DNA from: a virus
Reading direction: 5' to 3' (one strand)
DNA length: 22,294 bases
Virus record (IMG/VR): IMGVR_UViG_3300009008_003378
Location: 1 to 22,294 of that record
Shown: positions 537 through 22,294 of the stretch, piece after piece
Layout of the letters: each line of letters opens with the position of its first letter
How positions within the stretch are numbered: the first letter of the stretch is position 1
Translations under genes and position numbers: made by a program
Notes under the pieces: model-generated
What the model was told of the DNA's origin: nothing
Seen by the model: only the letters and a program-made list of their open reading frames with translations
The model's database searches: none

Positions 537-542
537 CCACTC

Positions 543-4900: not shown

Positions 4901-6094
4901 CAGATCCGGATGATTGGAATTCATCTCTTCCGCCGATTCGCGGAGCTGTTCGAACCGCTCCCTCTGCCTGGCTGTCAGCGGCTCTCCCGCTTCCGATTTC
5001 CTGACCAGGGTGTCGAATTCCTTCCGGGACCATTTTCCTTTTCGAAACCAGGCGGGATATGTACTGCCGATAATGTGGCTGTTTTCGCCGATCGATTTTT
5101 GTACACCGCCCTGTCCCACTTCCTCCTTCATTATTTCGAAGGCTTCGGCCAATTCGGTTGGCATCCGTACGGGTTCCCGGTTGGAGACCTCCCGCAGCCC
5201 TTCGGCAAGCTCCGCCAGGGCGTCGGCCTTCAGCGCTTCGCTGGTTTTGGCATCGAGGGCGATTTCCTCTTTCGGCTTTGCCCGCCGAGTCTCCTCCTGG
5301 GCTCTGCTGATTCCCCAGGGCTTTTTTTCAGGCATAGGCGGGAGTTCAACCTTCGGTGGCGGTGGCGGTACCGGAGTTTCTCCCGAAAGGAATTCCGCTG
5401 CAAACTGCTCCTGCAGAACCTCCGCCTCGGCATTCTTCTTTGGAGTCGTCTCTTTTGCCCGGGAGGACTTTTTACCGGGAAGTTTCCCGCCAGCCTTTTT
5501 TACAAGGGGAAGGAAAACCGGCAGCGCTTCGATGGCGGTCTGCACAACCGTCCCCGCCAGGGCGCTACCCGTCTCATCATGAACCGCCTCCCCAGCCGCC
5601 ACGCCGAGTTCGTGAAGTTTTTCAAACGGGTACATGGCCGCCGACGTCAGCTGTTTTCCGCCCTCGGTTTGCGGCTGATAGATCAGCGTCTCCGCCGCTT
5701 TATCGATAACTTTTTCCCCCTTTTCGAAGTCCAGCCCGGTGGCGCCGAACATTCCCATGGTAAAGGGTGCGGTTTCAATCACCTCCTCGGCCAGATCGGC
5801 ATCCTGTTTCAAGCTTCCGGCCATGCCGGTGGCGCCGGCAACGGGAAGCCCATAGGCCATGGTGGTCAGGTGGGCCGCGGTCTCGGCGGCGGGGGTGACA
5901 TGAGCTATATTTTTTAACGTTTCTCCGGCTGCGGCCATTGCACTAATAGGTTTTTTCTTCGGAGGAGAAGGTCCAGCAATCTGGTCAAAGATATCATTAT
6001 GCATTTGAACAGGTTCGACGTGTTCTATCTGGTCAAAAATGTCCTGATGCGGTTGTGTTATTTTGTTTTGCTCTATCTGGTCAAATATATCCAT
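1919..6094 (-). CDS. Large polyvalent virion/ejection protein with nuclease-like and LPD38-like segments
   Basis: The 1391-residue protein starts directly after the TAG of the preceding gene (TAGATG). Residues 2-40 hold three copies of a DIFDQI motif with a 16-residue period. Residues 50-200 are Ala/Gly-rich with hydrophobic stretches, as in membrane-crossing ejection proteins. A Pro/Lys-rich linker follows (205-275). Residues 340-395 contain a GSTYPAWFR and LTARQ segment that I associate with phage polyvalent proteins. Residues 504-587 have a helix then strand layout ending in YRVRSAYTMS, resembling phage BECR-type (Barnase-EndoU-ColicinE5-RelE) nuclease domains. The second half (about 650-1320) is a helical region with WLFNYAKVTKFQD and PFATFTF segments, similar to LPD38. 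Phages package such proteins and eject them with the genome. Domain names are from memory and need a profile search. No transglycosylase motif was seen. Confidence 0.7.
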   Translation of the reverse strand: MDIFDQIEQNKITQPHQDIFDQIEHVEPVQMHNDIFDQIAGPSPPKKKPISAMAAAGETLKNIAHVTPAAETAAHLTTMAYGLPVAGATGMAGSLKQDADLAEEVIETAPFTMGMFGATGLDFEKGEKVIDKAAETLIYQPQTEGGKQLTSAAMYPFEKLHELGVAAGEAVHDETGSALAGTVVQTAIEALPVFLPLVKKAGGKLPGKKSSRAKETTPKKNAEAEVLQEQFAAEFLSGETPVPPPPPKVELPPMPEKKPWGISRAQEETRRAKPKEEIALDAKTSEALKADALAELAEGLREVSNREPVRMPTELAEAFEIMKEEVGQGGVQKSIGENSHIIGSTYPAWFRKGKWSRKEFDTLVRKSEAGEPLTARQRERFEQLRESAEEMNSNHPDLVVGQEAADLAKKGYEPIFDEINASDLEVPGDRAIIKDEVFTSKGYDKNGQVVLEDGKTYRLDPWDTLDVDGVKKGGPPLRDTRVPVEGDTFKWLGVEPGNVFADYSALQSKHKEQFRSPEEVRSHVEHVLEKPDYKLPATKEDYTLLVRSNGSDRAAVVEFVLKGGKYRVRSAYTMSRGQLEAKLQKIRPQGGRSEPPAPARSPQGEISSGSPTTPSDAVHPAAEKTVAVPDKKVKPGDPEGGTTLYSGLPVPEMAKLYRKVGDKVWDDWVVEKLPKALEKIPGGKAVNRAMVYDYRGDLPMSKAYIESMGKMKRNQTIGAEYGIDLGKRLQSVSENEQIRMGQYIRGENTLLAKPAKALADEAKTAMLQLGKQAVDAGLLAEKTFFENAGRYMPRLYSSKEYQTLLDRFNVAKPNRMDLSRFKKRKDIPLEVREQMGEILTPGYPIAKGVVQLTHDIEMAKFFKGIAETPEWAVKKNADRIPEGFVQLPANRKLGNLSEAYVHPEIFGDLNEAIRVMSQPEKVWRKALGAWKFGKVILSPKTHARNLMSNSVLAHLGGLPMYEQPWYLARAAREMRNQGEYWRKAKREGLLSDTFTNAELRTLFERVEGQMEGVKAGSMPEQLGRIGSGWEKSKSALNKAAKLYEAEEQWFKLSKFIHNMDRKKMSAIEAAADSEKWLFNYAKVTKFQDAYRSKWYGAPFATFTFKALPRIAEAAVKTPHRFILPAMMIHGLERAAMDKFGDTRVQAKAKRELLPEWMRGSMLGMPNFARFPILDESGREYYLNLTYILPWGDIGEGGGFGPVPGSLMPFTQPFVKEPWQQVVNYDTFWKENIVKESDVAGKSLVERMKTEGKIRGKHAFNAMAPTPLIDATKAVAALRKTPDYRGRTRPGAVVAADVLAGIKLYPVDYAEQAAREIRRADPERGELAMEIKREISSLYRKLQAVKESGGDTSGYQEQIDDKIDQLNGLAEEVKTAGSRLKVSQGKQVAGRE
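5975..6091 (-). repeat. Three in-frame copies of a DIFDQI-encoding repeat, 48-bp period
   Basis: DIFDQIE (residues 2-8), DIFDQIE (18-24) and DIFDQIA (34-40) are spaced exactly 16 codons apart at the N-terminus of the 1391-residue protein. The linkers between them differ, so the motif and not the linker is conserved. The codons also differ in part, so this is not a very recent DNA duplication. Confidence 0.85.
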
Positions 6095-7174
6095 CTAAAG
6101 GACCCACCCGTGTTGCCGAGCTATTTCCCGTGCCTTTTCCTTATCCCCTCCCGCTGCATCCAGATATTTCTTAGCTTGTACTGGGTCAGTAAGTTTTAAT
6201 GTAGCACCGAATAAATTATTCAAGGCTGCTTCAGCTGTTTGTTGATCAATTACCTCTGCAACAACTGCCCCTCTGATCGCCGCCTCAGTCAGGCCCAACT
6301 CAGCAACGTCTCCGCCGGCTTGTTTGAACTGGCGACCAATTACCAGCGCACGGGAAAAACTTTCCTTCGCAATGCGAATGCCCTTCTCGCCCATCGCCTC
6401 GGAAAGAATGTTCTCCCCCCGGGCAGCGCTGTTATATTGTGAAATCTGTTTAAAAAAATCCGTTTTGAGTTCATCGGCTCTTTTCCCGGCATCCCCATCG
6501 CCCGATTCCAGATCCTCGGCTTTACCCCATGCCCAGCCCTCGGCTTCCGCTTTGTCGGCGTCCGCTTTGGTTCGGATCGTACGGGCCAGGCGCCGTCCGT
6601 CCTCGTCCTTGAAATACTCCCTGGGTCCAAACGTTTCCGCATGGCCCGGCGTGAGATCCCCCCTCTTGAATCCCCGGGTCTCAAACAGGTTTTCCTCCGC
6701 CTTCGATCGGCTTTTGTAATTCACCCGGCTGCCGTCTTCGAGGACTTCGTAAAAGTTGGCCGGTGTGTACTTCCCTGGCTCCACCTGCGTCGGTTTTTCA
6801 TGCGTGTATCCACGCCCCCTGGCGGCGTCTTCTTCCGCCTGGGAGTACACCTTCGCGGTTTTGGTGATCCGGCCGTCCTCCACGCTGTAAAGCTCCCGGG
6901 GCGAATAGGCGGTTTTTTCCGGGGTATTAAGTTTTTCCAGTTTCTTGAACTGGACCACCATCCCCACCAGGTTCTGCATCTGCACATCGTCCATTCCGTT
7001 CTCCTGGGCGAACCGCATCAACCCCTGTGGGGAGAAATCTCCGGACTCCATAAACACTCTGCCGAGCTTTTTCATCCGCTGGGCATTGATGTGCTGGAAT
7101 ATATTCCGCTTTGCCGCGGCCTCGTTGTCCCGGGCCATTTGGTTGCGCTGCATCAGCGCCTGTAAAACCGACAT
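6095..7174 (-). CDS. Probable internal virion or ejection protein
   Basis: The 359-residue, charged, largely helical protein cannot be assigned to a named family. The N-terminal half has long amphipathic helices (for example residues 1-40, and 60-80 with MQNLVGMVVQFKKLEKL). The middle repeats short blocks around Y-S-x-E-D-G-x and K-x-K-A-x-A (TKTAKVYSQAEEDAARGRGY, then NYKSRSKAEENLFETRGF, then RTIRTKADADKAEAEGWAW). This suggests a degenerate internal repeat of about 40-50 residues. The C-terminus is Ala-rich and helical. Its position between the tail genes and the polyvalent protein fits a DNA ejection protein, like the three-protein sets of T7 or P22. AAGGGGGG just before the ATG at 7174 is a usable ribosome binding site. 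Confidence 0.55.
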   Translation of the reverse strand: MSVLQALMQRNQMARDNEAAAKRNIFQHINAQRMKKLGRVFMESGDFSPQGLMRFAQENGMDDVQMQNLVGMVVQFKKLEKLNTPEKTAYSPRELYSVEDGRITKTAKVYSQAEEDAARGRGYTHEKPTQVEPGKYTPANFYEVLEDGSRVNYKSRSKAEENLFETRGFKRGDLTPGHAETFGPREYFKDEDGRRLARTIRTKADADKAEAEGWAWGKAEDLESGDGDAGKRADELKTDFFKQISQYNSAARGENILSEAMGEKGIRIAKESFSRALVIGRQFKQAGGDVAELGLTEAAIRGAVVAEVIDQQTAEAALNNLFGATLKLTDPVQAKKYLDAAGGDKEKAREIARQHGWVL

Positions 7175-7183
7175 ATCCCCCCC

Positions 7184-8131
7184 TTATCCGAATAGATCCC
7201 CGATTCCGTCAAACACCTTCAGCCAGTCCAGGGCGTCGGAGCCTTTCTCCCACATCGATTCATCCTTCTCCTCCACGTGGCCGGTGGTGTACATGCTGGG
7301 GATCATGTGTCGCATCCGCTGCATGTCCGTGGCCCGTCCGCCCAGCTCCTTTATGATGTCCAGGTTCCGGCGGGGCACGATGTCCACACTCTGCCCGCCG
7401 ATGGACACCTGATAGGCCGGATTCAGGAGATTGTCCCCTTCCCCGCCGTACACCCGGTCCACATACTCGTCCCACACCTGCCGGGTGCCCTCTTCCCATG
7501 GCGCCGGCGCCTGGTAGGTCCGGCCCACGGCCTCTCCTCCAGGCAACCCGGCAAACATGTCCAGAAAGCCGGCGGATCCGGTTCCGGCGGCGGGGGTTCC
7601 CACCGCCGGTGGAGACGTCAGGGAAGGCCCGGATCCGGGCGGTTGGGTTCCCGCAATCCTATCAAGGAATCCCCCCCCGGACGGGGACCGTTGGTTATTG
7701 GACACAAATTGATCCGAAATTTGCCGCACATCGGACTGGGTCGCGCCAGGTACCTGGCGGGCCACCGCGATGGCCGCCTGATCCGGCGGCACTCCGCTTT
7801 CAACCGCACGGGAGTAGGCATCCGTAGCCCAACCAACCACATGGGTCCCCAGGCTCTTTCCCGTGATCATCTTGGACAATACGTTGACCCCCAGGGTAAT
7901 CGGGTTGTTCACTGTGAAAAGATCGACCCCACGGGCGGCCAATTTCCGCCCGCCGCCTGCGATCCGGTCCAGATAACCTTCGCCACGGCCGTCGTATCCC
8001 CGCCCAAAACCGGGGGAGGTGGTGTTGTCCTGGCCACCTCCGTATGACTTCGGGTTGCCGATCCCGAGACCGCCGAAGCCGCCCCGCTCCTTGTCTTCAC
8101 CATATTCGTCCTTGTTATCGAAAAAACCCAT
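7184..8131 (-). CDS. Gly/Pro-rich probable internal virion or ejection protein with repeated LDRIAG motif
   Basis: The 315-residue protein is low-complexity at the N-terminus (Gly/Asp/Lys, residues 1-50). It then has GYLDRIAG (52-59), a small helical domain (95-145, with VESGVPPDQAAIAVARQ), GFLDRIAG (154-161), a Pro/Gly linker, and GFLDMFAG (188-195). The C-terminal 110 residues are folded-looking and acidic. The motif closely resembles DIFDQIAG at the start of the 1391-residue protein two genes downstream. I know no named family for it. The gene is AAAGGAG-led, with an ATG at 8131. Operon position suggests a minor virion protein ejected with, or bound to, the other internal proteins. Confidence 0.55.
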   Translation of the reverse strand: MGFFDNKDEYGEDKERGGFGGLGIGNPKSYGGGQDNTTSPGFGRGYDGRGEGYLDRIAGGGRKLAARGVDLFTVNNPITLGVNVLSKMITGKSLGTHVVGWATDAYSRAVESGVPPDQAAIAVARQVPGATQSDVRQISDQFVSNNQRSPSGGGFLDRIAGTQPPGSGPSLTSPPAVGTPAAGTGSAGFLDMFAGLPGGEAVGRTYQAPAPWEEGTRQVWDEYVDRVYGGEGDNLLNPAYQVSIGGQSVDIVPRRNLDIIKELGGRATDMQRMRHMIPSMYTTGHVEEKDESMWEKGSDALDWLKVFDGIGDLFG

Positions 8132-8144
8132 AACGGAAACTCCT

Positions 8145-8639
8145 TTATAGATTGGCCATCACCTGGGCCATCAGCTCAAAGGGCGCCAGGGGGTTCTTCT
8201 GGACCGTCGTGGAGCTGGTTTCGTTGTACTTGGCCAGCTCCGCCAGGCGCCCCAGGATGTCCGGCACCTGGGCCTGCATCTTGGCGCCCTCCATGCCGGC
8301 GGCGTACCCGTAGTTGGCGAACGTCGGCACGATGCTCCCCATGGTCTTTGCGATGCTGTCGCTGGCCACCGAGCTGTTGAGCATGTTCCGGGCGGCCAGG
8401 CCGTTTAAGATATCCGGCATCGCCCTGGTCATCGCCTGCCGGGAGAGGTTCTCGTAGAGACCTGACGCGTTTTTGGTGTAGTTGTCGATGGTGGCCGGCA
8501 GCGCCCGTGCCCGTTCCACCAGCATGGGCACGATCCCCGTCTCGATCTTCCCACGGGCACCCGGCGCCAGGCCGGAGTAGCTATGGGAGGACGACGTCGT
8601 CGTCGGCACCAGGTTGGGTTGAAACATTTCGATGGTCAC
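8145..8639 (-). CDS. Helical minor virion protein, GTG start
   Basis: The 164-residue protein has a Ser/Thr-rich N-terminus followed by helices, including NGLAARNMLNSSVASDSIAKTM (about 83-104). That pattern recalls small pilot or ejection proteins of podoviruses, but I do not recognise a named family. The GTG at 8639 is chosen because AAGGAGG lies six bases before it. An ATG four codons later (8627) is less well placed. The GTG follows the upstream TAA directly, which suggests coupled translation. Confidence 0.5.
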   Translation of the reverse strand: MTIEMFQPNLVPTTTSSSHSYSGLAPGARGKIETGIVPMLVERARALPATIDNYTKNASGLYENLSRQAMTRAMPDILNGLAARNMLNSSVASDSIAKTMGSIVPTFANYGYAAGMEGAKMQAQVPDILGRLAELAKYNETSSTTVQKNPLAPFELMAQVMANL

Positions 8640-9014
8640 TTAAAGCCTCCTTCCCGCTCGGTTCTTGACCAGGCAAGCCAGTGCCCTTGCCAGCTTCTTT
8701 ACTTCCGCCTTCAGGCTGTCGACGTCATTGCAATCGTCCACGGCTTTTTCCACCGCCTCGCCGGCCGCCCAAGCGTCCGCGATCTCCGCCTCCTTCCGCT
8801 GCCGCTCCGCCTCCCGGGCCGCCAGGATTTCATCGATCTCCCCCTGGGGCTTTCGCACCACCCGCTCGTTGGCGATATGAAACAGCTCCATCTCGTCAAA
8901 GTGGATATACACGTCGGACAAGACAAACGCCTCGTCCTCGGCGCCGGCGTCCTTGTTAAATGAGACAATCGTGGCCGGATCTGACTTCTTGTACCAATGT
9001 TTAAACTTCGGCAT
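8640..9014 (-). CDS. Small coiled-coil protein of unknown function
   Basis: The 124-residue protein has a beta-rich N-terminal half (MPKFKHWYKKSDPATIVSF, then acidic strands). The C-terminal half is helical, with a charged heptad-like run from about residue 58 (IDEILAAREAERQRKEAEIADAW) and a second helix with two cysteines. No family is recognised. It lies between the fibre-like gene and the small helical virion gene in tight operon spacing (15 bp upstream, none downstream), so a role in tail or ejection assembly is inferred from position only. Confidence 0.5.
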   Translation of the reverse strand: MPKFKHWYKKSDPATIVSFNKDAGAEDEAFVLSDVYIHFDEMELFHIANERVVRKPQGEIDEILAAREAERQRKEAEIADAWAAGEAVEKAVDDCNDVDSLKAEVKKLARALACLVKNRAGRRL

Positions 9015-9029
9015 GATGACCCCTTTGTC

Positions 9030-10241
9030 TTATCTGACGATCCTTACCGCACGTAGTGAAAAAGACCCGGTGGAGGTGCTGCAGCTGTAGTAAACCGTAC
9101 TGGCCACCAGGGGTATAAAATCGGAAACCCCTTGCACATTCGCACCGCCGGTGATCTGCTGCGTACTCACGCCGGAATACCCTGACGCCGACGCCACGCT
9201 CATCGTATTGTTGTCGGCTCCCGGACCGCAGGAAAACAGTGCCGACACGCAGAACCCAGACGCATAAGGAATGTACGCGGTGACGGACTGGGTCCCGGCT
9301 CCACTCAACCCACTGGCCACGGAAACACTGGACTTCAGCCACATCTCCACCGTTTGCCCCCCACCCACCTGGGTGAACGGCTGGATGTTGCTGCTGCTGT
9401 CGGTGACGACATAGAACAGCCACCGCTTGTAGTCGTAGTTTGCCGGCATCGTGGGACTGTCCGCAGACGTCGAGAAAAGCACATCCACCACCCCGGTGTC
9501 GCTTCGCTTGATCAGGAACACATGGTAGATGGTGTTGGCCGCCACCGACCCGGCGTCCAGGCCGGGCGCATCGTCTCCCACCGCCCACGCCCCATCGATC
9601 TGTTTGGTGATCTCGGAGGGCAGCACCAGGTTCCGGACGTCGGTGTCGTCCCGGATCCCGCCGGCGGTGACATTGACGTCGTGGTCGGCGTCGGTGTCGT
9701 TGCTGCAGACCAGGCCGTAGACGTCGCCCGGCGACAGCGCCACCACCTCCACCCAGGCGCTGCCGTTGTACACCTTCTGCTGGCTGTCCCCGGTCACCCA
9801 GATGGTGGTGCCCGTCTCCACCGTGTAGGTCACCGCCGAGGGATCTGCGGCATAGATGTTCCCGCTGCAGATCCGCCATTTGGAGTTCCCGTCGTCCCAG
9901 GTGTAGACGTTGCCGTTGTCGGCACACACCCGCAGCTGCCCGTCCGTGGCCCCCGTGCCCAGGGAAGCCGCGTCCGCCACCACGATGTCCGGATCGGTCA
10001 GGGCGATGGTCAGCGTCTCGTCGCCACCGTCGTTGCCCTCGGTGAGGCTGATGCGGTTGCCCGCCACCAGCTTGCCGTTCAAGACCCCCACCACCGTGTC
10101 GTTGGCCGACACGATCACCCCGCTGCCTGCGGCGATCGCCGCGAGCTGGGCGAAGATCTCCGTGAGGTCGTCGTCCAGCAGGGTCTGGATCGCGGCCCGC
10201 ACCGTGGTGCTGTCGGAATATGTCTCTTTACCGGTGCCCAT
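9030..10241 (-). CDS. Tail fibre or tip-like beta-rich protein
   Basis: The 403-residue protein has a short helical N-terminus (about 1-40, TTVRAAIQTLLDDDLTEIFAQ) that could attach it to the tail. Beta-rich, Gly/Thr/Asp-rich repeats follow. One is a V-Y-x-x-D-x-G-N-S-K-W-R-I block (about 110-125), related to WVTGDSQQKVYNGSAWVEV (about 150-165), as in many fibre shafts. The C-terminus (about 280-403) looks like a compact beta domain with paired cysteines. No signal peptide is present, unlike the fibre-like genes at 13235-16935. It follows the nozzle gene by 12 bp with a GGAGAGGAG site, the usual place for a tail tip or fibre gene. No enzymatic motif was seen. Confidence 0.55.
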   Translation of the reverse strand: MGTGKETYSDSTTVRAAIQTLLDDDLTEIFAQLAAIAAGSGVIVSANDTVVGVLNGKLVAGNRISLTEGNDGGDETLTIALTDPDIVVADAASLGTGATDGQLRVCADNGNVYTWDDGNSKWRICSGNIYAADPSAVTYTVETGTTIWVTGDSQQKVYNGSAWVEVVALSPGDVYGLVCSNDTDADHDVNVTAGGIRDDTDVRNLVLPSEITKQIDGAWAVGDDAPGLDAGSVAANTIYHVFLIKRSDTGVVDVLFSTSADSPTMPANYDYKRWLFYVVTDSSSNIQPFTQVGGGQTVEMWLKSSVSVASGLSGAGTQSVTAYIPYASGFCVSALFSCGPGADNNTMSVASASGYSGVSTQQITGGANVQGVSDFIPLVASTVYYSCSTSTGSFSLRAVRIVR

Positions 10242-10253
10242 TTTACTCCTCTC

Positions 10254-12572
10254 CTACGCAGAGAGCGGCCGGTACATCACCAGCCACCCGTTGATAAACA
10301 GCGGCCATCCCGCCAGGGTAAGGTCGACCAGCTGCACCTGGAAGGATCTCGCGTTGAAATAAAGGTCCGCCCACACGGCCGTGGCCACCGGCGCCAGGGT
10401 GAACTGGGCGTCCTCAAGGTCCATGGTGGCCTCGGCCAGGGTAAGATCGTCGGCGATGGCCAGCGGCATCGAGAACGAATGGGTGGGGGTTAGAAGCTGC
10501 CCGTCCGTGTAGATCGCAACGGTGATGCCCGCACCGCCCCGGGATGCGAACTGGTGCTGAAACCGCTCCATCTCCGCGTACACGTACGGAAATTCGATGT
10601 AGGCAGACCGCAGCCTCGGGTCGATCTGGCACGTCCCCTGGTCCTTGTACTCGCCGGTGTCGATCTTGTAGAGGTGCCCGTCCGACCCCCCCATGAAAAA
10701 CGTCCCGGAATGGGCCGTAAAGCAGGTGGGCACCATCAGCCCCCGCACCGCCACCCCGGTGCTGTCCGGATCCCCGCTGTCGTCCCGCAGGTAGATGGAG
10801 GGAAACCCGTTGCCGTCGTTGTCGCCGTGCCCCCAGCACCGGTCCCCCAGGGCGCCCAGGGTGCCGGAAGAGAGCGGCACCCGGTTCCGGGTGAGAAAGT
10901 CCGGCGCCGCCGCGATGGAAGGATCCCCGCCGGCGGCCAACTCCACGTAGTACTCGTTGGTGCCGTTGGCGGATTTGGTCCACTTGTAGGCGCTGCTGGT
11001 GTACACCGCCAGCAACAGCTCGTATTCGGTCCAGGGATACCGCAGCCCCATGCCGTCCGGGCTCCGCACCGGCTTTTTGGTCCTCGCCACCAGCACCCGC
11101 CGCCACGCCGGCATCGCCAGCCAGTACTGCCCGTCCAGGGGGTTGTATCCCGCCACCGCCGTGGCCGTGGCCCAGTGGTCGGCGATGCGGTCGGCCACCG
11201 GATCGCTCTCGCTTTCCGCCCGCAGATCCCCGTACTCCTGCACCCCGGCCAGGGCGTTGACCCCGTTGCCCGAACCGGCCCACAGGTCGTTCACGCTGCT
11301 CACCAGCGTGTTGTGGGTGGTCCACACCTTCTGGAAGGTCCGTTTCAGGGCGTAGTCGCTGGGGGTGTCCCCGGTGAGCTTGCAGATGTACGGCTGGTCC
11401 TCCTTGCCGAAAACGAAAAGATCCCCGTACAGGTCGCAGATCCCCCCCACCGGGAAGTTGTTGCGGTCGTCGTCCACCGCCCCCACGTACCCGCCGCCGT
11501 TGGCCGTGGACCAGTCCAGGTGGGTCAGGTTGCAGAACCGCACCCACCCAGGATTGTCCGGATCCCCGCCGGCAAAAATCCGGTTGTCGCTGATATACCC
11601 GAACGCGATCTTGGGCGGGCGGCCTGGCCGGAGGCTGGCGATGGGGTCCTTGGTGGTGTCCGCTGCCCAGGATCCCGCATAGACAGCGCCCGTGCCACCA
11701 CTGGCCACCGTGGTACAGTGGACCAGGACGTGGTTGCTGCCGTCGCCGCCGGAATGCTCGATGCTGCAGTAGTAGTCGGTTGCGGGGCTCATCTCCGTGG
11801 TCACGTCGGCCGGAACAAAACTCACCGTCTCTTCGGCAGCCGTTCCCGTCAGGGTGGAGGCGTCCGCCACCAGCACCTTTTCCGCCAGGATCGAGTCGTC
11901 TCCGGCCGCCCGGATCCGCGCGGTGACCGCAGAGGCGTTGGGCGTGCCCGCAGCGGACAATTTGAACTGTACCCGGGTGGGCGGGATGGTGTACCCGGAG
12001 GTCCAGGTCTGGGCGGTGAAAACGGTGGCGATCCGGGTGTTGGTGCCGTCTCCCAGCTTCAGGGTGACATCGTCCGTGCCGGCGGAATTGTCGAACTGGT
12101 ATCCGCTGGTCCCGTCCCCGGCGTCGTAGCAGATCTTGATGGCCGAGGTGTCGTCCACGTATTTCGCGTAGGATCCGTCCAGCAGCACCGCCACGCCGTT
12201 GTAGGGCAGGATCTGGGCAGCGCCCGCAAGGGTCCCGATGAGCTGGGGGTCCAGGTTGCCGTCCAGGTAGTAGAGCCGGTGGTTGGCGTCCACCTGCAGC
12301 TCGTAGGCCGTGGACCCCAGCAGCGCCAGCTCCGCCGCCTTGATCGCAGCGTTCCCGGTCACCGCCGTGTTCGTGTGCCGGCTGATCGCCTGACGGCTCT
12401 CCAGCTGACCGCCGGGGTTGATCTTGAAATTGATCAGCTCGGCGGCCTCGGTCTTGGCGATCTGCATCTCAGACACCAGGGTGTTGAGCCCGTGGGGGAA
12501 ACCCTTGACGGCGCTGTTTTTCATCCGGCGCCGAATGTCCGGCGTCCGGGCCATGTGATCCCAAAGGCTCAT
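10254..12572 (-). CDS. Tail nozzle protein (T7 gp12-like beta-propeller) with inserted domain
   Basis: The product is about 772 residues, close to the roughly 790 of T7 gp12. The start is the ATG at 12572, which overlaps the TGA of the adaptor gene (ATGA). The open frame continues upstream but is only a shadow of the adaptor gene there. The N-terminus (SAVKGFPHGLNTLVS, INPGGQLESRQAI) matches the style of podovirus nozzle proteins. A segment like PPKIAFGYISDNRIFAGGDP (about 319-338), followed by repeated DLYGDLFVFGKE-type blades, fits the beta-propeller. Residues about 165-305 interrupt the propeller with a beta-sandwich-like insert (RIATVFTAQTW to TDYYCSIEHSG) that recalls choice-of-anchor or carbohydrate-binding domains. 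The nozzle closes the tail channel below the adaptor. Assignment rests on size, order and motif style. Confidence 0.65.
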   Translation of the reverse strand: MSLWDHMARTPDIRRRMKNSAVKGFPHGLNTLVSEMQIAKTEAAELINFKINPGGQLESRQAISRHTNTAVTGNAAIKAAELALLGSTAYELQVDANHRLYYLDGNLDPQLIGTLAGAAQILPYNGVAVLLDGSYAKYVDDTSAIKICYDAGDGTSGYQFDNSAGTDDVTLKLGDGTNTRIATVFTAQTWTSGYTIPPTRVQFKLSAAGTPNASAVTARIRAAGDDSILAEKVLVADASTLTGTAAEETVSFVPADVTTEMSPATDYYCSIEHSGGDGSNHVLVHCTTVASGGTGAVYAGSWAADTTKDPIASLRPGRPPKIAFGYISDNRIFAGGDPDNPGWVRFCNLTHLDWSTANGGGYVGAVDDDRNNFPVGGICDLYGDLFVFGKEDQPYICKLTGDTPSDYALKRTFQKVWTTHNTLVSSVNDLWAGSGNGVNALAGVQEYGDLRAESESDPVADRIADHWATATAVAGYNPLDGQYWLAMPAWRRVLVARTKKPVRSPDGMGLRYPWTEYELLLAVYTSSAYKWTKSANGTNEYYVELAAGGDPSIAAAPDFLTRNRVPLSSGTLGALGDRCWGHGDNDGNGFPSIYLRDDSGDPDSTGVAVRGLMVPTCFTAHSGTFFMGGSDGHLYKIDTGEYKDQGTCQIDPRLRSAYIEFPYVYAEMERFQHQFASRGGAGITVAIYTDGQLLTPTHSFSMPLAIADDLTLAEATMDLEDAQFTLAPVATAVWADLYFNARSFQVQLVDLTLAGWPLFINGWLVMYRPLSA

Positions 12573-13219
12573 ATCCCGCTTACCCCTCGAAACAGGTCCC
12601 CGCCCGCCCGGCGGCGGCGGATGCCCCTTGCATAGGTTGTAGCCATGGCGGTCCCGTGGGCGGCCGCCGCCCTCGCCCACCACTTGGCGCTGGGCCGCTC
12701 CTGGATGTCCAGGGCCGTGGCCGTCAGGGTGTGCTGGACGGTGGAGTCCCAGATCCCCTGCCAGGGCACGGCGTCGTTTGTCACGTCGGCCAGCTCGGTG
12801 AGCGGCTCGAAATACTGGCAGTACACCGTGTACGTCTGGTCCGGAACGGAAAGGAATCCGATCTTGTTGTCCTCGGTGATGTAGAACGCCTCCGGCTGGG
12901 CGGTGACCGTGTCCACATCGTAGTGAATCTTGTCCGCCTCGGACCCCTGGAAGAGGAACGTCTCCTCCCCGTCGATCCACATCCCGTCGTCCATGATCGA
13001 GTTGAAGGAGAAAGAGGGCGTGTACTCCGGCGTGTCCGCCGCAAGGGTGATGCTCCCCTCCTTGTACACCAGCACGCTCTCGATCCCGCACAACTCGCCG
13101 TAGATCTGCTCCAGAATGTCGTTGACAATGCCCAGGTACTGGGCGTCGGTGGACTTCAGCTTGTTGACGTCCCGGGCGTTGACTCTCGCCCGGGACATGA
13201 CCGTCGATAAGGTGCCCAT
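12569..13219 (-). CDS. Tail adaptor protein (T7 gp11 / SU10 adaptor type)
   Basis: The 216-residue protein has the pattern of podovirus head-to-tail adaptors. A helical N-terminus (RARVNARDVNKL to NDILEQIYGEL) is followed by a beta insertion with YYLD- and FLSVPDQTYTVYCQYFE-like strands. A long C-terminal helix (HTLTATALDIQERPSAKWWARAA) would pack against the portal. It is followed by the nozzle gene with a 4-bp overlap, the adjacent pair expected for gp11 and gp12. GGGGA before the ATG at 13219 is a fair ribosome binding site. The AT-rich 15-bp gap before it abuts the fibre-like gene. Confidence 0.7.
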   Translation of the reverse strand: MGTLSTVMSRARVNARDVNKLKSTDAQYLGIVNDILEQIYGELCGIESVLVYKEGSITLAADTPEYTPSFSFNSIMDDGMWIDGEETFLFQGSEADKIHYDVDTVTAQPEAFYITEDNKIGFLSVPDQTYTVYCQYFEPLTELADVTNDAVPWQGIWDSTVQHTLTATALDIQERPSAKWWARAAAAHGTAMATTYARGIRRRRAGGDLFRGVSGI

Positions 13220-13234: not shown

Positions 13235-15766
13235 TTAATTATTATTGATATAACTCGCTTGAACGATATCATCCCGTATCAGGATGCGATTGATTTTCAT
13301 GGGGCCGGTGCCGAATGTATATCCAATATTCAGATTGGAGCCTGTAGTAAATGCACCGGAGTAGTCCGTTGTCCCGCCCCAGGAAACTCCCGCACCAGAA
13401 TCCGCACCAATCCGAAATTTAGCCACGTTACTCTCAAGAAATCCCCACTGTATGGCAATTTTATAGAGTGTCCCTAAAGCGGGAGATAGCGAAACAGAAG
13501 CGTCTTGTGCAGCCGAGTCTCTGGTAAGTAGTAATGTGCCGGTAGCGTTCTGCCTTAAAAGGCCGCTGGTGCCATCTTTCACGGCAATTATTTGAGACGC
13601 ATCACCAACGTCAGCGGTACTATACCCCGACTCCCACCACACAATCATAGTGCCGTGGGGAGGCATACCGTCCCAACTGTTGGTGACTTGTTTGACGGAG
13701 ACTTCATCAAAGAGCATGGTTCCGGCAGTAGAGGTCAGCTTCATCAGATAGAGGTAAATAGTGGATGTCGGGGCTTTAAAGTAGTATTTATACTTCACCC
13801 ACGATCCAGTTGACGCATTGTTAAACTCATCGAAAAACACATCAGATCCATTGTTTATCTGGACTCGACTATTTTCGTCACCAGATGTCCCACTTTTTAG
13901 GTAATATTCCAGTGCGTAAGTATCGTCGGCTGTAAGTCCGGTAACGGTTGCTTTTGCGTACTGACTTGACCCACCGGTTCTGGTAATCTCAAGACTGTTA
14001 TTTGACTGACCACCAGCTACGGACGCTAAAGTACAATCAGTTGGAGTCCATCCGGTAGTGTTGGCGTCAAAAGTTCCATTCGTTACAAGCTCACTCCCCA
14101 AACTCTCTGCAAACAGGTTGCTCGGCAGCGTATAGCTCATGGCAGCGGCTTCTGTGAGGCGGGCGGTGCCGAGGGCTTTGATGGATACTACGTCGATGGT
14201 ACCGATGAAAGCAGAATTGCCTGTAACATACAATGTACTGTTTCCCGATGCTACCAGATAGTAAACATAATCCCCACTGGTTGTTATAGCATCGTACCCT
14301 TGTGAAGTGCTACACCCGGTCGATCCAGCGCAGACCCACCCCGTCCCGGCTGATCTGGTAGCGGTTAGTGTAATTTCGTAAACAGTATTTGCCGATAAAC
14401 TAACATCTTGGGCCAAATCAACATTGGTTGATTGGTCTCCGCTGTAGTTAGCCTTGTTTGTTAGAGAACCAGAACTTGCCTGTGGGGCAATAGCGGTTCC
14501 TGCGGTCCAGTGGGTGAAGGTGATGGGGACAATGCTAAAGTCATCAAGATCTATACTGCCATCACCAGAACATCTAACAATAATTCCACCGGCTCCTTGT
14601 GCATTATAGTAAAAGCTATTTGTACCGCTTGTTATATCACCCTGTTTTACATTTGCCGCTTCCTCCTTCCATTCCCAGGTACCAGATACACCAGATGCAG
14701 TATATGTAACTTTGTATGTGTTTCCGACCGTGGTTGTTGCATAGCCGTTCGTTAGAACAGCATACTGACCTGTCGTACAGGTCAAACTCAAATCGCCAGT
14801 TTCGTCATAAGTACCGCAAGTAGCATTGGCCCAATTACTGGCCCCCGAAAAGTCCCGGTCAACCTGTGCCGTGATAATCTCACTCCCCTCACTCACAGCA
14901 TCAAATGTACCGTCAGTGACCAGCTCTGAGCCAAGCGCCACCCCGTCATTATCAACGTAGCTGCTTGGAAATGCGGCTTGTTCCAGTTGGGCGGCGTCGA
15001 ATACTGCGGAGCCGGTGGTGGTTCCGTACCAAGTGGCACCGGCATCAGTATTGATGGCGGGATAGACGCCCACGGCTAGCTCGTTATTATCAGCGTTTGA
15101 ATCGTCATGAGACATCCAAACTCGCCAGTAATCGCCAGCATCCTCAACACCGGTACTTTCTGGTGCCGTTCCCGAATCCCTATTAGTGACGGTCCCATTG
15201 TCTGTATCTATTATGATACATGAGTAGTCAGAAGTCCCACCGTCAAACCGCATGAGTAGTCCGGGGAAGGATGAGGCAGATGTTGTCTTTTTCACAAAGA
15301 TAGAAAATGTGTAAGTGGAAGTATCGGAAGTTGTCTTGGATATAACCTGTTGTTCATACCTATGGCCGACTCCACCAGATGATGAGTTACTGTCTGTGAA
15401 GGTCCATGCCTTGTTAGCAGATCCATCCACTCCTGTCTCATCTTGGGCTAAAGTGGTGGCATAGTCTGCTGTCCAAATCGCCTCGTCAAAATCCCTCGAC
15501 TCCTGCAACAGATTCTTACCCTGCGGCTCAAGGAGAAGACCGCCTGGGGCTATTCGGGCTGTATTCGCCCCGGCAGTTTGAAGCACACCGGCATCGTCAA
15601 TATAGGTGCGGTTCGTGCCGGAATAGGTAAAAGTCGCACTCCCAATCCCGCCCTTGACCGGATCGGTGGTTCCCTGCTGTGAGAAACTAAAGTCAAGGAT
15701 CTCTGCGGCAAAGACCGGAGATATAAGGCACAGTGCCAGGAGGATATGCAATAGTAATCTTTTCAT
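13235..15766 (-). CDS. Large secreted-type fibre/receptor-binding-like protein with Sec signal peptide
   Basis: The 843-residue protein opens with a textbook signal peptide: MKR, a hydrophobic core to about residue 16, and a likely SPase I site after SPVFA (about 20). Residues 25-272 resemble a phage concanavalin/LamG-like head domain (NRTYIDDAGVLQTAGANTAR, GLLLEPQGKNLLQESRDFD), common at fibre and tail-protein N-termini. Three jelly-roll-like segments follow, at about 279-415, 417-535 and 557-695. Two of them start with GSELVT[DN]GTFDA, as in CBM-type modules. The C-terminus (698-843) looks ConA-like again. No catalytic motif is seen, so glycan or receptor binding is inferred. GGAGG lies six bases before the ATG at 15766. 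Base composition is clearly lower in G+C than the neighbours, suggesting separate acquisition. A phage virion protein should not need Sec export, so the signal peptide is odd. Confidence 0.65.
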   Translation of the reverse strand: MKRLLLHILLALCLISPVFAAEILDFSFSQQGTTDPVKGGIGSATFTYSGTNRTYIDDAGVLQTAGANTARIAPGGLLLEPQGKNLLQESRDFDEAIWTADYATTLAQDETGVDGSANKAWTFTDSNSSSGGVGHRYEQQVISKTTSDTSTYTFSIFVKKTTSASSFPGLLMRFDGGTSDYSCIIIDTDNGTVTNRDSGTAPESTGVEDAGDYWRVWMSHDDSNADNNELAVGVYPAINTDAGATWYGTTTGSAVFDAAQLEQAAFPSSYVDNDGVALGSELVTDGTFDAVSEGSEIITAQVDRDFSGASNWANATCGTYDETGDLSLTCTTGQYAVLTNGYATTTVGNTYKVTYTASGVSGTWEWKEEAANVKQGDITSGTNSFYYNAQGAGGIIVRCSGDGSIDLDDFSIVPITFTHWTAGTAIAPQASSGSLTNKANYSGDQSTNVDLAQDVSLSANTVYEITLTATRSAGTGWVCAGSTGCSTSQGYDAITTSGDYVYYLVASGNSTLYVTGNSAFIGTIDVVSIKALGTARLTEAAAMSYTLPSNLFAESLGSELVTNGTFDANTTGWTPTDCTLASVAGGQSNNSLEITRTGGSSQYAKATVTGLTADDTYALEYYLKSGTSGDENSRVQINNGSDVFFDEFNNASTGSWVKYKYYFKAPTSTIYLYLMKLTSTAGTMLFDEVSVKQVTNSWDGMPPHGTMIVWWESGYSTADVGDASQIIAVKDGTSGLLRQNATGTLLLTRDSAAQDASVSLSPALGTLYKIAIQWGFLESNVAKFRIGADSGAGVSWGGTTDYSGAFTTGSNLNIGYTFGTGPMKINRILIRDDIVQASYINNN

Positions 15767-15776
15767 GTCATACCTC

Positions 15777-16460
15777 CTATGGGGCTACGGTTTCTCGGAC
15801 GTAGCGAATCCAGATGCCAGTTGGTCCCACATCCTGGGCGTAATCGTCGTTAGCGTCAGATACATCTCTATACCAGTTCAAGAACGCCTTATCCCCTGCG
15901 GCAAGACCTGTAACCGTAACCGTTGTACTCCAAGATGTCCGAACCAAGTCATATTGCGGGTCCGACCTACCGGTTTTATTCGACTCAACAGCCGTGCCAA
16001 AAGATCCAGAAATAGAATCCCCAAGGCCTGAAGAATACCCTTGCAAGAAAAAGGACACACCTTCACTACTCATAGCTGTTGCCTCTGTGACGATAAACTC
16101 AACAGCGTATGAAATTCCGGCAGTTGTATCTATGTCGAATGGCACACTCCAATTAGCGGTTAAATCCTCATCACTCGCATCATCAAACTTTCTGACCGTC
16201 ACCTTCCCATTACCAGATGATATCGTTTCCAGCGTATCCGGTGGGCTTGACCCGTTGAGCATGTCGGAAACAGGGATGAAAACGTATTCGTAGAATTGGG
16301 CATCGTCCAGGCCACTGCCGTCCAGGTCGATCCCCTGACCGGCGCCCGGTTTTAATACACCGCCCACATCTTTCCAGTTACCGCCGATCCGGGGCCCCTG
16401 GGCCGCCGCCGGCGGTGACAGAAGAGCGATACAGAAAAGAATGATAATAAATCGTTTCAT
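15777..16460 (-). CDS. Fibre-like beta protein with Sec signal peptide
   Basis: The 227-residue protein begins MKRFIIILFCIALLSPPAAAQG, a clear signal peptide with cleavage near residue 21. The mature part is beta-rich, with an N-terminal PRIGGNWKDVGGVLKPGAGQG and a jelly-roll-like body. It ends at VGPTGIWIRYVRETVAP, which resembles the tail-end strand of phage fibre domains. The LLSPPAAA at the cleavage region echoes LISPVFAA of the next gene, although their DNA differs. Its gene lies 10 bp upstream of the large fibre-like gene and shares its lower G+C. No enzymatic motif was seen and no named family is recognised. Confidence 0.55.
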   Translation of the reverse strand: MKRFIIILFCIALLSPPAAAQGPRIGGNWKDVGGVLKPGAGQGIDLDGSGLDDAQFYEYVFIPVSDMLNGSSPPDTLETISSGNGKVTVRKFDDASDEDLTANWSVPFDIDTTAGISYAVEFIVTEATAMSSEGVSFFLQGYSSGLGDSISGSFGTAVESNKTGRSDPQYDLVRTSWSTTVTVTGLAAGDKAFLNWYRDVSDANDDYAQDVGPTGIWIRYVRETVAP

Positions 16461-16473
16461 AGCTTACGCCCTC

Positions 16474-16935
16474 CTAATCGGAAAAGATGATCACGATGAT
16501 GCCCGTGGCCGCGTTGACGCTGTTGTTGGAGATCGTCAGCGTCAGGCTGGTGTAGACCAGGCGGGTGCGGGATATCCCGTTGACCAGCGGGGTGGTCTGC
16601 TCCGTGGCCGTGGCCGATCGGTCCCCCAGGGCTCCGCCGAAAATGTCGGCGCCAAGGGCGTCGTCTATGGTGATGTCGTAGAGCGTCGTCGGCGCCGTGC
16701 CGCCCGGATCCGTGATGCCCAGGTGGGCACGCTTCCCCCGGATCATGGTCAGGATGTTGGCGGGGATGGCGTAGTCGGTAAAGCTCCCGTCCGTGTGGGC
16801 CGTCCAGGCCAGCTCCACCACGATGTCGCCACCGGCCTCGTAGGCCTTGGCCGTGCAGCTGCTGGCCGCCAGGGCGCTGCCGCCAAAAAGCACCAGCAGC
16901 ACCGAAACAAGAGAGATGAGTGTCATGCGTTTCAT
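16474..16935 (-). CDS. Phage head/virion protein homologue carrying a Sec signal peptide
   Basis: The 153-residue protein has MKRMTLISLVSVLLVLFGGSALA followed by ASSC, a signal peptide with a probable SPase I site near residue 23. There is no clear lipobox. The mature part has the layout of a small phage virion family I recall from many prophages: an ELAWT strand, LGITDPGGTAPTTLYDITI, then a GADIFGGALGDRSATATE loop and a C-terminal beta pair. Those relatives usually lack an export signal as far as I recall. The ATG at 16935 overlaps the TGA of the upstream gene (4 bp), with GGAGG nine bases before it. It is the first of the three signal-peptide genes. Binding or decoration of the virion is inferred. 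Confidence 0.55.
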   Translation of the reverse strand: MKRMTLISLVSVLLVLFGGSALAASSCTAKAYEAGGDIVVELAWTAHTDGSFTDYAIPANILTMIRGKRAHLGITDPGGTAPTTLYDITIDDALGADIFGGALGDRSATATEQTTPLVNGISRTRLVYTSLTLTISNNSVNAATGIIVIIFSD

Positions 16936-17333
16936 GCGGTAAATCCTCCCACCCGCTCGACAATGTAAAGGGGCTCCGATTTGGTGATCCAGATGATCCC
17001 GGTGGCGGGATCCCGGCGGGCCGAAAAGCCGGGGTAGTACTTCTCCGCCAGTTTCTGAGGGTTGCTGGCCTCGTAGATGCCAGAGCCCTCGTCCAGGGGG
17101 ATGTTGGTTTCCTGGGGGCGGGAAAGGATATCGATCTGGGTGAGGGTCAGCTCCACCACCGTCCCCGGGGAGAACCGCAGCTTGCCCCCGGTCGCGGGGT
17201 TGCAGGTGTCCACGGAGATGGGCAGGTCCTTGTTTTCCGGATCCATGCCCACGCGGTGGACCTTGACCTTGAATCGTTTTAGAGCGCTCTTGTCGTCGTC
17301 GGATTCTTTATTGCTTTTGTTTTTTTCACTCAT
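16932..17333 (-). CDS. Small virion-associated protein of unknown function
   Basis: The 133-residue protein has a highly charged, Ser/Lys-rich N-terminus (residues 1-20) that looks disordered, then a beta-rich domain (FKVKVHRVGMDPENK, IWITKSEPLYIVERV at the C-terminus). No named family is recognised. It lies between the head genes and the signal-peptide set, where completion or decoration proteins are usual. GGAGGAG about ten bases before the ATG supports the start. The strong palindrome at 17356-17383 lies just upstream in the message. Confidence 0.5.
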   Translation of the reverse strand: MSEKNKSNKESDDDKSALKRFKVKVHRVGMDPENKDLPISVDTCNPATGGKLRFSPGTVVELTLTQIDILSRPQETNIPLDEGSGIYEASNPQKLAEKYYPGFSARRDPATGIIWITKSEPLYIVERVGGFTA

Positions 17334-18175: not shown

Positions 18176-19180
18176 TTAGACGCTGGTCACGCCGTGTTCG
18201 ATCACGGCCATGAACTCGTCGTTGAGGATCTTGGTCGTGGTGGCGGTTTTCCAGCCGCTGGTGGCCCGCTGGTCCAGGGGATCCTCGGTGCCGGCGGATC
18301 CCATCGCCTTCACGATGTTCTTGATGCTCTTCTTCTGCAGGGGCACCACGCCGTAAGCGTTCTGGCCCAGGAGGATGGTGTGGTACACGTCGACCTGGGA
18401 GGCGCTGGTGGACACCAGGCCCGTGGACCCGACGGCGGCGCCGGCGTCGACGGTGATCTTGCCGGCGGTGGTGAGTATGAACCGGATCCCCTCCGCCTCG
18501 CCGATCTCATCGGGCAGAACGTCCTTCTGGGAGGCGTACTCCTTGACCGGCGTGAATCCCGGCAGCGCCTCGATATCCTTCCGGCAGTGGGTATGGGTGA
18601 TGCCGATGAAGGCAGCCCGGATCCCAACAGTGGCGACGCTCTTGCCCGCCGTGATCATGGTGCGGATCTTTTTGGCGTTATTGCCCTCAAGGGTGCGGAC
18701 CACGGAATCGAGGTCCACCTTGCCAAGGGCGGTGGCGATGCTGGTCCGGGCCGCCTCGCCGTTGGCGTAGCGCACCGTGGTGCAGCCCAGCAGCACGTCC
18801 CGGTCCAGGATGTCCATGGTTTCCCCGGCCTGGTCCCCCAGGATCTCGCCGGCCTCCAGCAGGGTGTTGTCCAGGCCGGTCATGGACACCCAGTCCGTGA
18901 TGGTCACGAAATCGCCGTACTGCTTGACCACGGCGTAGATCGTGCTGGACGTCAGCTTCTTCCCGCTGGGGGTGACGCCCTCGGTCAGGGGGGTGGTGGC
19001 CACGGCGAGAGAGCCGTAGCGCCGGAAGTTGATCCTGGCGCCCTGCTTTTTCGGCAGCGGACGCACCTGGCCGAATCGGCCGTGGTGGAGAGCGGGACCC
19101 ACCCGCTCCAGGAGATTGCGGTCGTAATAGCCCTGTATTTCAGGGGACACATCCGATTTTGCAGTTATAATACCTGGCAT
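18176..19180 (-). CDS. Major capsid protein, N4-gp56 family
   Basis: The 334-residue protein has the typical order of the N4-gp56 capsid family. An N-terminal arm (PEIQGYYDRNLLERVGPAL) is followed by a basic strand region (PLPKKQGARINFRRYGSL). LTEGVTPSGKKL is at about 65-76, QYGDFVTITDWV at 87-98, and the long helix LLEAGEILGDQAGETMDILDRDVLLG at about 107-132 follows. The C-terminal half is beta-rich with FIGITHTHCRKDIEALPGF. It forms the HK97-fold icosahedral shell. Length is in the usual range of about 300-400 residues. GGAGG eight bases before the ATG at 19180 supports strong translation. The scaffold-like gene is directly upstream, and the gap downstream carries a hairpin. Confidence 0.88.
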   Translation of the reverse strand: MPGIITAKSDVSPEIQGYYDRNLLERVGPALHHGRFGQVRPLPKKQGARINFRRYGSLAVATTPLTEGVTPSGKKLTSSTIYAVVKQYGDFVTITDWVSMTGLDNTLLEAGEILGDQAGETMDILDRDVLLGCTTVRYANGEAARTSIATALGKVDLDSVVRTLEGNNAKKIRTMITAGKSVATVGIRAAFIGITHTHCRKDIEALPGFTPVKEYASQKDVLPDEIGEAEGIRFILTTAGKITVDAGAAVGSTGLVSTSASQVDVYHTILLGQNAYGVVPLQKKSIKNIVKAMGSAGTEDPLDQRATSGWKTATTTKILNDEFMAVIEHGVTSV

Positions 19181-20238: not shown

Positions 20239-20535
20239 TTAGCGCTGCTTTCGGATCTGCAGCGTGGCGGCCGCCTCTACGGCCGCGTGGAGCTTTTTTC
20301 TCAATTTTTCCACCGCATCCGCGTAAGCGTGCAGACCGATGTAGATTTCATGCTTGCAGGGCAGTGAAGCGGCCTTGATCGCCTCCCAGGCCCGGATATC
20401 CTCCTCCTTAAAGAACTGCGCCACCAGCGGGTTGTCCAGCAGCCGCCGGGCGGCCTGACCGGCGTTCATGATCTTCGCCTCCGCCAGCTCCCGGTCCTCT
20501 TTTTCCTCTTCAGATGTAGGCTTGCGGTTGGTCAT
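20239..20535 (-). CDS. Small helical protein overlapping the portal gene
   Basis: The 98-residue protein is highly charged. A first helix (EEEKEDRELAEAKIMNAGQAARRLLD) is followed by a second region (PLVAQFFKEEDIRAWEAIKAASL) and a third (IYIGLHAYADAVEKLRKKLHAAVE). It starts inside the last codons of the portal gene (26-bp overlap). The ribosome binding site, GGAGG 13 bases before the ATG, is spaced loosely, so translational coupling to the portal is likely. No family is recognised. Small helical proteins at this position may assist scaffold or head assembly. Confidence 0.55.
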   Translation of the reverse strand: MTNRKPTSEEEKEDRELAEAKIMNAGQAARRLLDNPLVAQFFKEEDIRAWEAIKAASLPCKHEIYIGLHAYADAVEKLRKKLHAAVEAAATLQIRKQR

Positions 20536-22294
20536 CCCGGTTCATCGCCTCCCATTCCATCATCGCCTCAAGGGCTTTGATCTTTCGTTTCAGTTCCAGC
20601 TCACTCATCCCCAGGGTCGCCTTGATATCCAGATCCTTGTTCTTGAGCATATGGTCCCCCTGGAGCTTTTGCGCCTCCAGCATCTGGGTCTTCATGGCCT
20701 GGTCGGCCGCCGCCTTGAGCTGCTCCATGGAGGTGTTGACAAAAGTGTCCAGCTCCCCGATGAACTCGCTCGTCTCCTTGTACCCGAATGCCGCCACGTA
20801 GCGGTGGGCCAGGTTGTAGACGCTCTTGGGGTTGAGCAGCCCGGGGAACATGCCGTTCAATTGGCCGAGGAAGGTGAACATTCTCTCGATCTTCTGGGAT
20901 TCCACGATCCCCACCTCCGCCTCGGCGGACATGTTCACCTTGGTCTTCACGCGGCCCTGGATCATCTCCCGGGTGATCTCCACCTCCCGGCCCATCACCT
21001 TGGCCGTAAAGGGCCGGGTCATGAACCGCTGGTAGAGCATGGTGCATTTGCGGTAGAAGTCCTTGACACCTGTCTCGGCGAAGATCCGGGCCACCATCTC
21101 CAGCCGCTGGTGGGCCGCCCCCTGGATCATGGAGATCCCCGCAGCGGTGCGGTTCAGGCTGCCGGCCGCCTGGCCCTGGTTGTAGCGGGTCACCCCCGTC
21201 CGGTTCTCTTTGACCGTGTCCACGTACTCCACCAGGTTCAAAACGGACGGGTGGAAGGGTTTCGGGTATTCCTTCTTGACGGCGTCCAGCTTGCCCCGGA
21301 TCACGTCCCCCGGGACGTTGTCCAGCATTGCCCGGACGTCCGCCTCGGCGTTGGGTCCCACCACCCACTGGCCCACGTTGGTAAAGGAGAAGTTGTCCAG
21401 GATCCGCCGCACCAGCATGGTTTTCAGGTTCTGCACGTCCAGGACCAGGTCGGAGTAGGCGATCCCGTAGAATTTGTAACAGGCCAGGATTGGGGAGAGG
21501 ACGCAGAACGGGATGAACCGGTCGGTGTTCAGCTCCCATCGCAGCAGCTGCTTGTTGCCCACCCAGCAGATGATGTCCTCCAGGTAGCCGTCGCCGTCGA
21601 CGTCCTCCCGGGTGAACCACTCCACCAGCTCCACCTCGCTCTTGGCACCCTTTGTGTCCGTGTCCACGGCATCGGTGAGATCCTCGCCCATGTAGGCGTT
21701 GCGCTCGGACTCGCCGGCGAACTTCGACCCGTCCTGAGAGTCTCCGTCCACCGCATCTTCCAGGGCGGAGAGGTTCTTGAAAAACGGTTTTTCGCCTGGC
21801 TTTGTCCGGGAGCGGTTGATCCGCTTCAAAAAGTCCAGGTTGACTGTGGTCTTGTGGCCCTTGCCGTACTCGTCGTTGACGCTGGTGGATTTTGCGGCGG
21901 CGATGAACTCCCAGTGGGGCACGTTGTCCACGGCCAGCTTGTCGTCCCGCACCGCCCGGATCCGGGTCTTGACGTTGGTTACGTACTGGCTGCCGAAACG
22001 CTCCTCTCCGATCTCCCAGTCCACCACCTCGACGTCCGGGTCCTCGCCCAGGACCTTGAGCTGCTCCACCGTCATCCGGGGCCAGGTCATCTGCTTCAGC
22101 TCGTGGTCGCGGTGCCACAGGGGCTTGACCACCGACGTGTCGGAAACCAGGGCGTCCTTCATCCAGGTGTAAAAGGCGATAAAAAGGCTGTTGCCCTCAT
22201 CCTCGGAAAGATCGTCCTGGATCCGCCGCATCATCGCCTTGTTCACCCACGGCTCCGCCCCCTCGATCTCGATCTCGATCTTGGGATCTCCCGA
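20510..22294 (-). CDS. Phage portal protein (SU10/P22-like), 5' end outside the window
   Basis: The frame is open to the right edge, so the true start is not visible. A GTG at 22246 lies in frame, but the 16 codons before it read straight through, so it is unlikely to be the start. Residues counted from that GTG: conserved-looking segments are GVTRYNQGQ (351-359, with a following loop) and AAGISMIQGAAHQRLEMVARI (about 368-388), a hallmark that I recall from SU10-type portals. FIPFCVLSPILACYKFYGIAYSD precedes them. Long helices at the C-terminus (about 520-570) form the barrel or crown. The portal is the dodecameric DNA gate at the capsid vertex and binds the tail adaptor. The gene is cut only by the window edge. 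Confidence 0.85.
   Translation of the reverse strand, partial: SGDPKIEIEIEGAEPWVNKAMMRRIQDDLSEDEGNSLFIAFYTWMKDALVSDTSVVKPLWHRDHELKQMTWPRMTVEQLKVLGEDPDVEVVDWEIGEERFGSQYVTNVKTRIRAVRDDKLAVDNVPHWEFIAAAKSTSVNDEYGKGHKTTVNLDFLKRINRSRTKPGEKPFFKNLSALEDAVDGDSQDGSKFAGESERNAYMGEDLTDAVDTDTKGAKSEVELVEWFTREDVDGDGYLEDIICWVGNKQLLRWELNTDRFIPFCVLSPILACYKFYGIAYSDLVLDVQNLKTMLVRRILDNFSFTNVGQWVVGPNAEADVRAMLDNVPGDVIRGKLDAVKKEYPKPFHPSVLNLVEYVDTVKENRTGVTRYNQGQAAGSLNRTAAGISMIQGAAHQRLEMVARIFAETGVKDFYRKCTMLYQRFMTRPFTAKVMGREVEITREMIQGRVKTKVNMSAEAEVGIVESQKIERMFTFLGQLNGMFPGLLNPKSVYNLAHRYVAAFGYKETSEFIGELDTFVNTSMEQLKAAADQAMKTQMLEAQKLQGDHMLKNKDLDIKATLGMSELELKRKIKALEAMMEWEAMNRDDQPQAYI

Follow-up and report, generated by a model that had tools for sequence, protein, structure and literature searches.

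The usual assumption is that tailed phages produce their virion proteins, and put them together, in the cytoplasm, and the virus record considered here raises the question of why three adjacent genes in the middle of a structural operon should encode proteins that start with signals for export through the Sec pathway. The window, i.e. the whole stretch of DNA that was analyzed, is the 22.3-kb IMG/VR record IMGVR_UViG_3300009008_003378 (22,294 nucleotides), with the structural operon on the minus strand. In our reading, to which we assign a probability of about 0.5, the trio (genes 1, 2 and 3, in the order of transcription) is one copy of a mobile module of late operons that consists of fibre-, lectin- and coat-like proteins exported via Sec and acting on glycans outside the cytoplasm. 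What the sequence shows is that the locus has export signals and a layout for co-expression, that it was inserted into a conserved operon, and that the module recurs in unrelated tailed phages.

Export signals of genes 1-3

The preliminary description of this DNA held that three adjacent products each begin with MKR, followed by a hydrophobic core and a site resembling those cleaved by signal peptidase I (SPase I). The open reading frames (ORFs) are located as described there, and the signals were confirmed with a rule-based scorer, used for all signal calls in this work, that looks for a positive n-region, a hydrophobic core and small residues at positions -3 and -1. Gene 1 (16474..16935, minus strand) encodes a small beta-sandwich protein with a signal peptide at residues 1-23 (16867..16935, minus strand) and a predicted cut after residue 23 (ALA/ASSC; full N-terminus MKRMTLISLVSVLLVLFGGSALA/ASSC). 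Gene 2 (15777..16460, minus strand), the product of which contains a domain common to the C-terminal ends of signal-bearing fibres in four other viruses, has a signal at residues 1-20 (16401..16460, minus strand), cut after residue 20 (AAA/QGPR; MKRFIIILFCIALLSPPAAA/QGPR). Gene 3 (13235..15766, minus strand) codes for an 843-aa multi-domain fibre/lectin-like protein, again with a signal at residues 1-20 (15707..15766, minus strand) and a cut after residue 20 (VFA/AEIL; MKRLLLHILLALCLISPVFA/AEIL).

All three proteins share an n-region charge of +2, an AxA-type site and a 9-residue core with a mean Kyte-Doolittle hydropathy of 3.08-3.63. Each ATG is preceded at the right distance by a ribosome-binding site (GGGAGG for gene 1, AGGAGG for genes 2 and 3), and no alternative in-frame start with a Shine-Dalgarno sequence was found within the first 80 codons of any of them. 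Scoring of 19 window genes singled out these three as the sole ones with a positive n-region, a strong core and a cleavage site together; because shuffled N-termini pass the same rule in 0.9% of cases, three adjacent signals are not a chance occurrence. A lipobox in protein 1 was considered and rejected, the residue at -3 to the shared SSC cysteine being Ala or Asp. By these features, genes 1-3 carry convincing Sec/SPase I signals, which makes export a well-supported prediction; the role of the exported proteins we infer.

Insertion into a conserved late operon

The window is a fragment of an SU10-like podovirus, given that it encodes an SU10-type portal protein (20510..22246, minus strand; PF23899, E=1.6e-89), an SU10-type adaptor (12569..13219, minus strand; PF24175, E=2e-07) and a related major capsid protein (18176..19180, minus strand; phrog_1357, E=7.5e-71), and it shares the backbone of that group. 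Its nearest relative, L004 (numbers with the prefix L designate the compared loci), is syntenic, with a capsid protein 55% identical to that of the window and the gene order portal, small gene, scaffold, capsid, 225-aa gene, 144-aa gene, adaptor. All three signal-bearing genes are missing from L004, where the 144-aa gene ends at position 4504 and the adaptor gene begins at 4505. The window contains the same genes in the same order, with the trio placed between the orthologue of the 144-aa gene (16932..17333, minus strand; E=3e-15) and the adaptor, which is 43% identical to the L004 adaptor and forms the downstream flank; the gene order thus bears out the placement between head and tail-adaptor genes given in the preliminary description. 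Since the flanking genes are orthologous and abut each other in L004, the trio was inserted into a conserved operon and does not belong to the basic gene set of this phage group. Unlike the window, the examined SU10-like relatives (L004 and L017-L024) lack signal-bearing genes in the head-tail cluster: the scan detected no head or tail gene with such a signal in these loci, and the rule matches that it returned were lysis-type genes, a lipoprotein and spurious antisense or overlapping ORFs.

Composition sets apart a low-GC block that covers genes 2 and 3 (13235..16460, minus strand). The GC content at third codon positions is 0.51 in gene 2 and 0.46 in gene 3, against 0.63-0.92 in the other genes, and therefore these two genes are late arrivals; gene 1, at 0.88, resembles its neighbors. 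The start codon of gene 1 overlaps the stop codon of the upstream structural gene (ATGA), the spacers between the genes of the trio are 10-15 nt long, and a promoter scan restricted to the sigma-70 type yielded no minus-strand site either ahead of gene 1 or between any two genes of the trio. The trio therefore has the layout of genes expressed with the late operon and not that of an autonomous moron.

The window also retains an ordinary fibre-like gene without a signal (9030..10241, minus strand), the product of which has an N-terminal region in common with L004 7212-7943. Likewise, vir555 (BK063671.1, host given as Methanomicrobiales), a phage with signal-bearing genes of its own, retains gene 55 (phrog_1640, 1e-15). 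Because signal-less fibre genes are kept in both, the signal-bearing proteins look additional to the ordinary fibres.

Recurrence of signal-bearing genes in other phages

The signal-bearing arrangement is not unique to the window and recurs as runs of four to five signal-bearing genes in other phages; nearly all of the loci compared are metagenomic or derived from metagenome-assembled genomes (MAGs). Protein 2 matches the C-terminus of the vir555 gene 57 product, a 768-aa fibre-like protein starting MKRILLPFIIILLMSGNTAWA, and profile scans located the same domain in L063, L064 and L066, where in each case it terminates a signal-bearing protein of 500 to 663 aa. In vir555, genes 56-59 (BK063671.1 38140-43157), annotated as hypothetical proteins and located after the tail genes, all have signal-like N-termini, that of gene 56 being the least clear. 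L063 contains four consecutive signal-bearing genes (6194-10047), L064 four between the large terminase and the portal (7008-10994), and L066 five before lysis-type genes (3747-10256). In the L064 run, the fourth gene (10524-10994) encodes a homologue of protein 1 that has a signal of its own and an AGGAGG site, and the L066 run directly follows a signal-less protein 1 homologue (3327-3737; E=2.8e-24). Three phages, namely the window, L064 and L066, thus have members of the protein 1 and protein 2 families side by side. The position of the runs in the late operon differs across L064, vir555 and L066. Their members include beta-helix-like, endosialidase-barrel-like and polysaccharide-lyase-like proteins, all below the Pfam cut-offs. 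The protein 2 family gave no match in 395 genomes from the phylum of the MAG that contains L025, and a single-sequence structure prediction of protein 2 reached a pLDDT of 41. The region of protein 3 from about residue 24 to residue 271 is 33-34% identical to a domain of tail proteins from L005 and L006 that have no signal; this region and the protein 2 domain are of fibre type. At the mature N-termini, where a virion-attachment domain would lie, Pfam and PHROG gave no match.

Homologues of protein 1 were gathered by pattern and profile searches. Those with a signal come from the window and from at least five other phages or prophages, namely L002 (siphovirus type), L009 (a podovirus, with the gene between the portal and a scaffold-like gene), L025 (a Desulfatibacillaceae MAG), L030 (a genome from the same phylum as L025) and L064; the signal-less members include L010, L013, L015 (Methanosarcina virus MetMV), L026 (a Desulfobacterales MAG), L041, L043, L051, L052, L061 and L066. 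In the alignment, the predicted cut falls at or next to the initiator Met-Ala of the signal-less proteins, and therefore one and the same mature domain occurs in both forms, signal-bearing and signal-less. Few branches are supported in the tree of this family, which allows for 2-4 gains or losses of the signal. The homologue search that the preliminary description had proposed thus shows that the families of the signal-bearing forms also include signal-less ones; as to whether the former cluster in one phage group, which it had asked, they recur in unrelated phages, and L004, the nearest relative, lacks the trio.

In its AF2 model (mean pLDDT 86.8), protein 1 forms a beta-sandwich, with high confidence across the mature domain and low confidence over residues 1-20. 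The good matches in a fold search are unnamed viral proteins; the best PDB match, a weak one, is the capsid chain of phage Pam1, and the capsid chain of phage KHP30 also ranks (TM about 0.36-0.41). As for the label "virion-type" that the preliminary description applied to all three proteins, homology justifies it for protein 2 through the fibre-end domain and for protein 3 through the fibre domain; for protein 1 it holds by weak fold similarity and gene position only. A Pfam match of protein 1 to Avian_gp85 (E=0.011, below the cut-off) was dismissed as chance, and tblastn of proteins 1 and 3 against annotated phages returned no match.

Several protein 1 homologues have neighbors of interest. 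In L009, a second signal-bearing protein (MKRKWTIAAIVLACAFLTFGFSA; 6322-7011), with no relatives in annotated phages, is encoded directly before the homologue and downstream of the portal. In L025, the product of the gene immediately behind the signal-bearing homologue (5367-5873) starts with a hydrophobic stretch that ends in SFVRADEP and may thus be a second exported protein. The signal-less homologue of L011 lies amid radical-SAM-like and glycosyltransferase-like genes (299-3696), an unusual setting for a structural gene.

Two further ORFs of the window deserve comment. The start of a 945-aa mechanical ORF (10254-13091) falls within the adaptor gene, and its likely true start is the ATG near 12587 (MSLWDHMARTPD...). 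The product of 567-1136 looks by eye like a small papain-fold (YiiX/NlpC-P60-like) peptidase (SHAG...CSELVCKFLW), with no Pfam match; the possibility that this gene is shared with vir555 as its gene 40 was tested, and the similarity was not supported.

Precedents, function and alternative explanations

Exported phage proteins have been known from several systems. T5 Llp and phi80 Cor are exported superinfection-exclusion factors, small lipoproteins produced from separate genes; like them, the window proteins are phage proteins predicted to be exported to the envelope, where they may mask receptors, but unlike them they are fibre- and coat-like and encoded in a structural operon. The tail region of phage lambda encodes Lom, an outer-membrane protein with a signal. 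Lom is expressed in lysogens (PMC7067206). The trio resembles Lom-type morons in that signal-bearing proteins are encoded within the late structural region of a tailed phage, and differs in comprising three adjacent genes with no promoter of their own seen and with products related to fibre- and coat-like proteins. Insertion into a conserved operon and, for genes 2-3 only, foreign composition are moron-like; an independent promoter and terminator appear to be lacking, as indicated by the ATGA overlap and the lack of a minus-strand sigma-70-like site. In the Streptococcus mitis phage SM1, the proteins PblA and PblB arrive at the cell surface via permeabilization by holin and lysin and bind phosphocholine (PMC2920869). 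These too are phage-encoded proteins, cell-surface adhesins in SM1, and export is predicted here as well, but in place of the holin/lysin route the window proteins encode Sec signals. A module of fibre- and coat-like proteins exported through Sec is represented by neither lambda Lom nor PblA/PblB. In literature searches on signal peptides of phage fibres, no matching description came up, although with partial coverage this is weak evidence of absence.

Under the module reading, the proteins would cross the inner membrane via Sec late in infection, SPase I would remove the signals, and the mature proteins would fold in the periplasm, away from virion assembly. In the periplasm, and in the medium after lysis, they might then attach to glycans of the surface or the matrix. 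Receptors on the dying cell, on debris and on neighboring cells could thereby be masked, and progeny might be neither wasted on debris nor faced with competition from superinfecting phages; these later steps have less support than export. The glycan role is favored because the domains are of binding type, ordinary signal-less fibres are retained and the signal keeps the proteins from cytoplasmic assembly. Several points count against this reading. Export, cleavage and receptor masking are all predictions, and the proposed glycan binding draws on sub-threshold family matches (the endosialidase-barrel and polysaccharide-lyase hints). A Gram-negative host would trap the proteins in the periplasm until lysis, and cysteine enrichment as a mark of periplasmic folding is not significant (1.21% vs 0.94%, p=0.08). 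Furthermore, signal-less protein 1 homologues in L010 and L013 belong to head-gene clusters of siphoviruses, between capsid or decoration and connector genes, and the signal-bearing copy of L002 holds the same slot between the head genes and the head-tail connector, a position that fits a virion part better than an envelope ligand.

That shared slot is also an argument for the main rival explanation, by which the proteins are exported virion parts, stockpiled in the periplasm and joining the particle only once lysis has mixed the compartments, protein 1 as a head decoration and proteins 2-3 as extra fibres. The similarity of the protein 1 model to the Pam1 and KHP30 capsid chains and the fibre-type domains of genes 2-3 agree with it, but those fold matches are weak, no virion attachment domain was recognized by Pfam or PHROG at the mature N-termini, and the literature search found no precedent for a tailed phage completed after lysis by Sec-exported parts; we regard it as possible, although rather unlikely. 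Doubtful, in our judgment, is the broader proposition that some tailed phages send a coat-like protein and fibres through Sec and finish or dress the particle outside the cytoplasm, with the module hopping between unrelated phages and the signal being added or dropped at a fixed domain boundary.

Cargo for lysogenic conversion, that is, surface or secreted adhesins that benefit the lysogen as in the case of lambda Lom, would account for the moron-like location of signal-bearing genes within a structural operon, the foreign GC block and the homologues in bacterial MAG contigs; it is nevertheless quite unlikely, considering that the trio has no promoter-like site and gene 1 overlaps a structural gene, that no integrase or repressor was seen in the fragment and that the domains are phage-type and not those of typical adhesins. 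The preliminary description had also offered hydrophobic N-termini that serve as virion anchors, and uncleaved signal-anchors might attach virion proteins, or intermediates of assembly, to the inner membrane. The protein 1 homologue of L008 may be such an anchor, given that its N-terminus is hydrophobic and that the better ribosome-binding site lies ahead of a tail of 24 residues preceding the hydrophobic stretch. In the window, however, all three proteins have short n-regions and small-residue sites, the signals have diverged with the n/h/c layout and these sites kept, and the cut coincides with the start of signal-less family members, which renders anchoring improbable here. The reliance on a rule-based scorer leaves chance or a gene-calling artefact to be considered, an explanation that is hardly credible in view of the good Shine-Dalgarno sequences, the lack of alternative starts and the recurrence across about ten loci.

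The occurrence of the same tagged gene set in several unrelated phages suggests that some phages export relatives of particle proteins. If this is true, phages would deploy free receptor-binding proteins into the periplasm and the medium, altering adsorption, superinfection and debris binding, or else the particle would be partly added to outside the cytoplasm. The annotation of fibre-like genes as virion receptor-binding proteins should be preceded by a check for signals.

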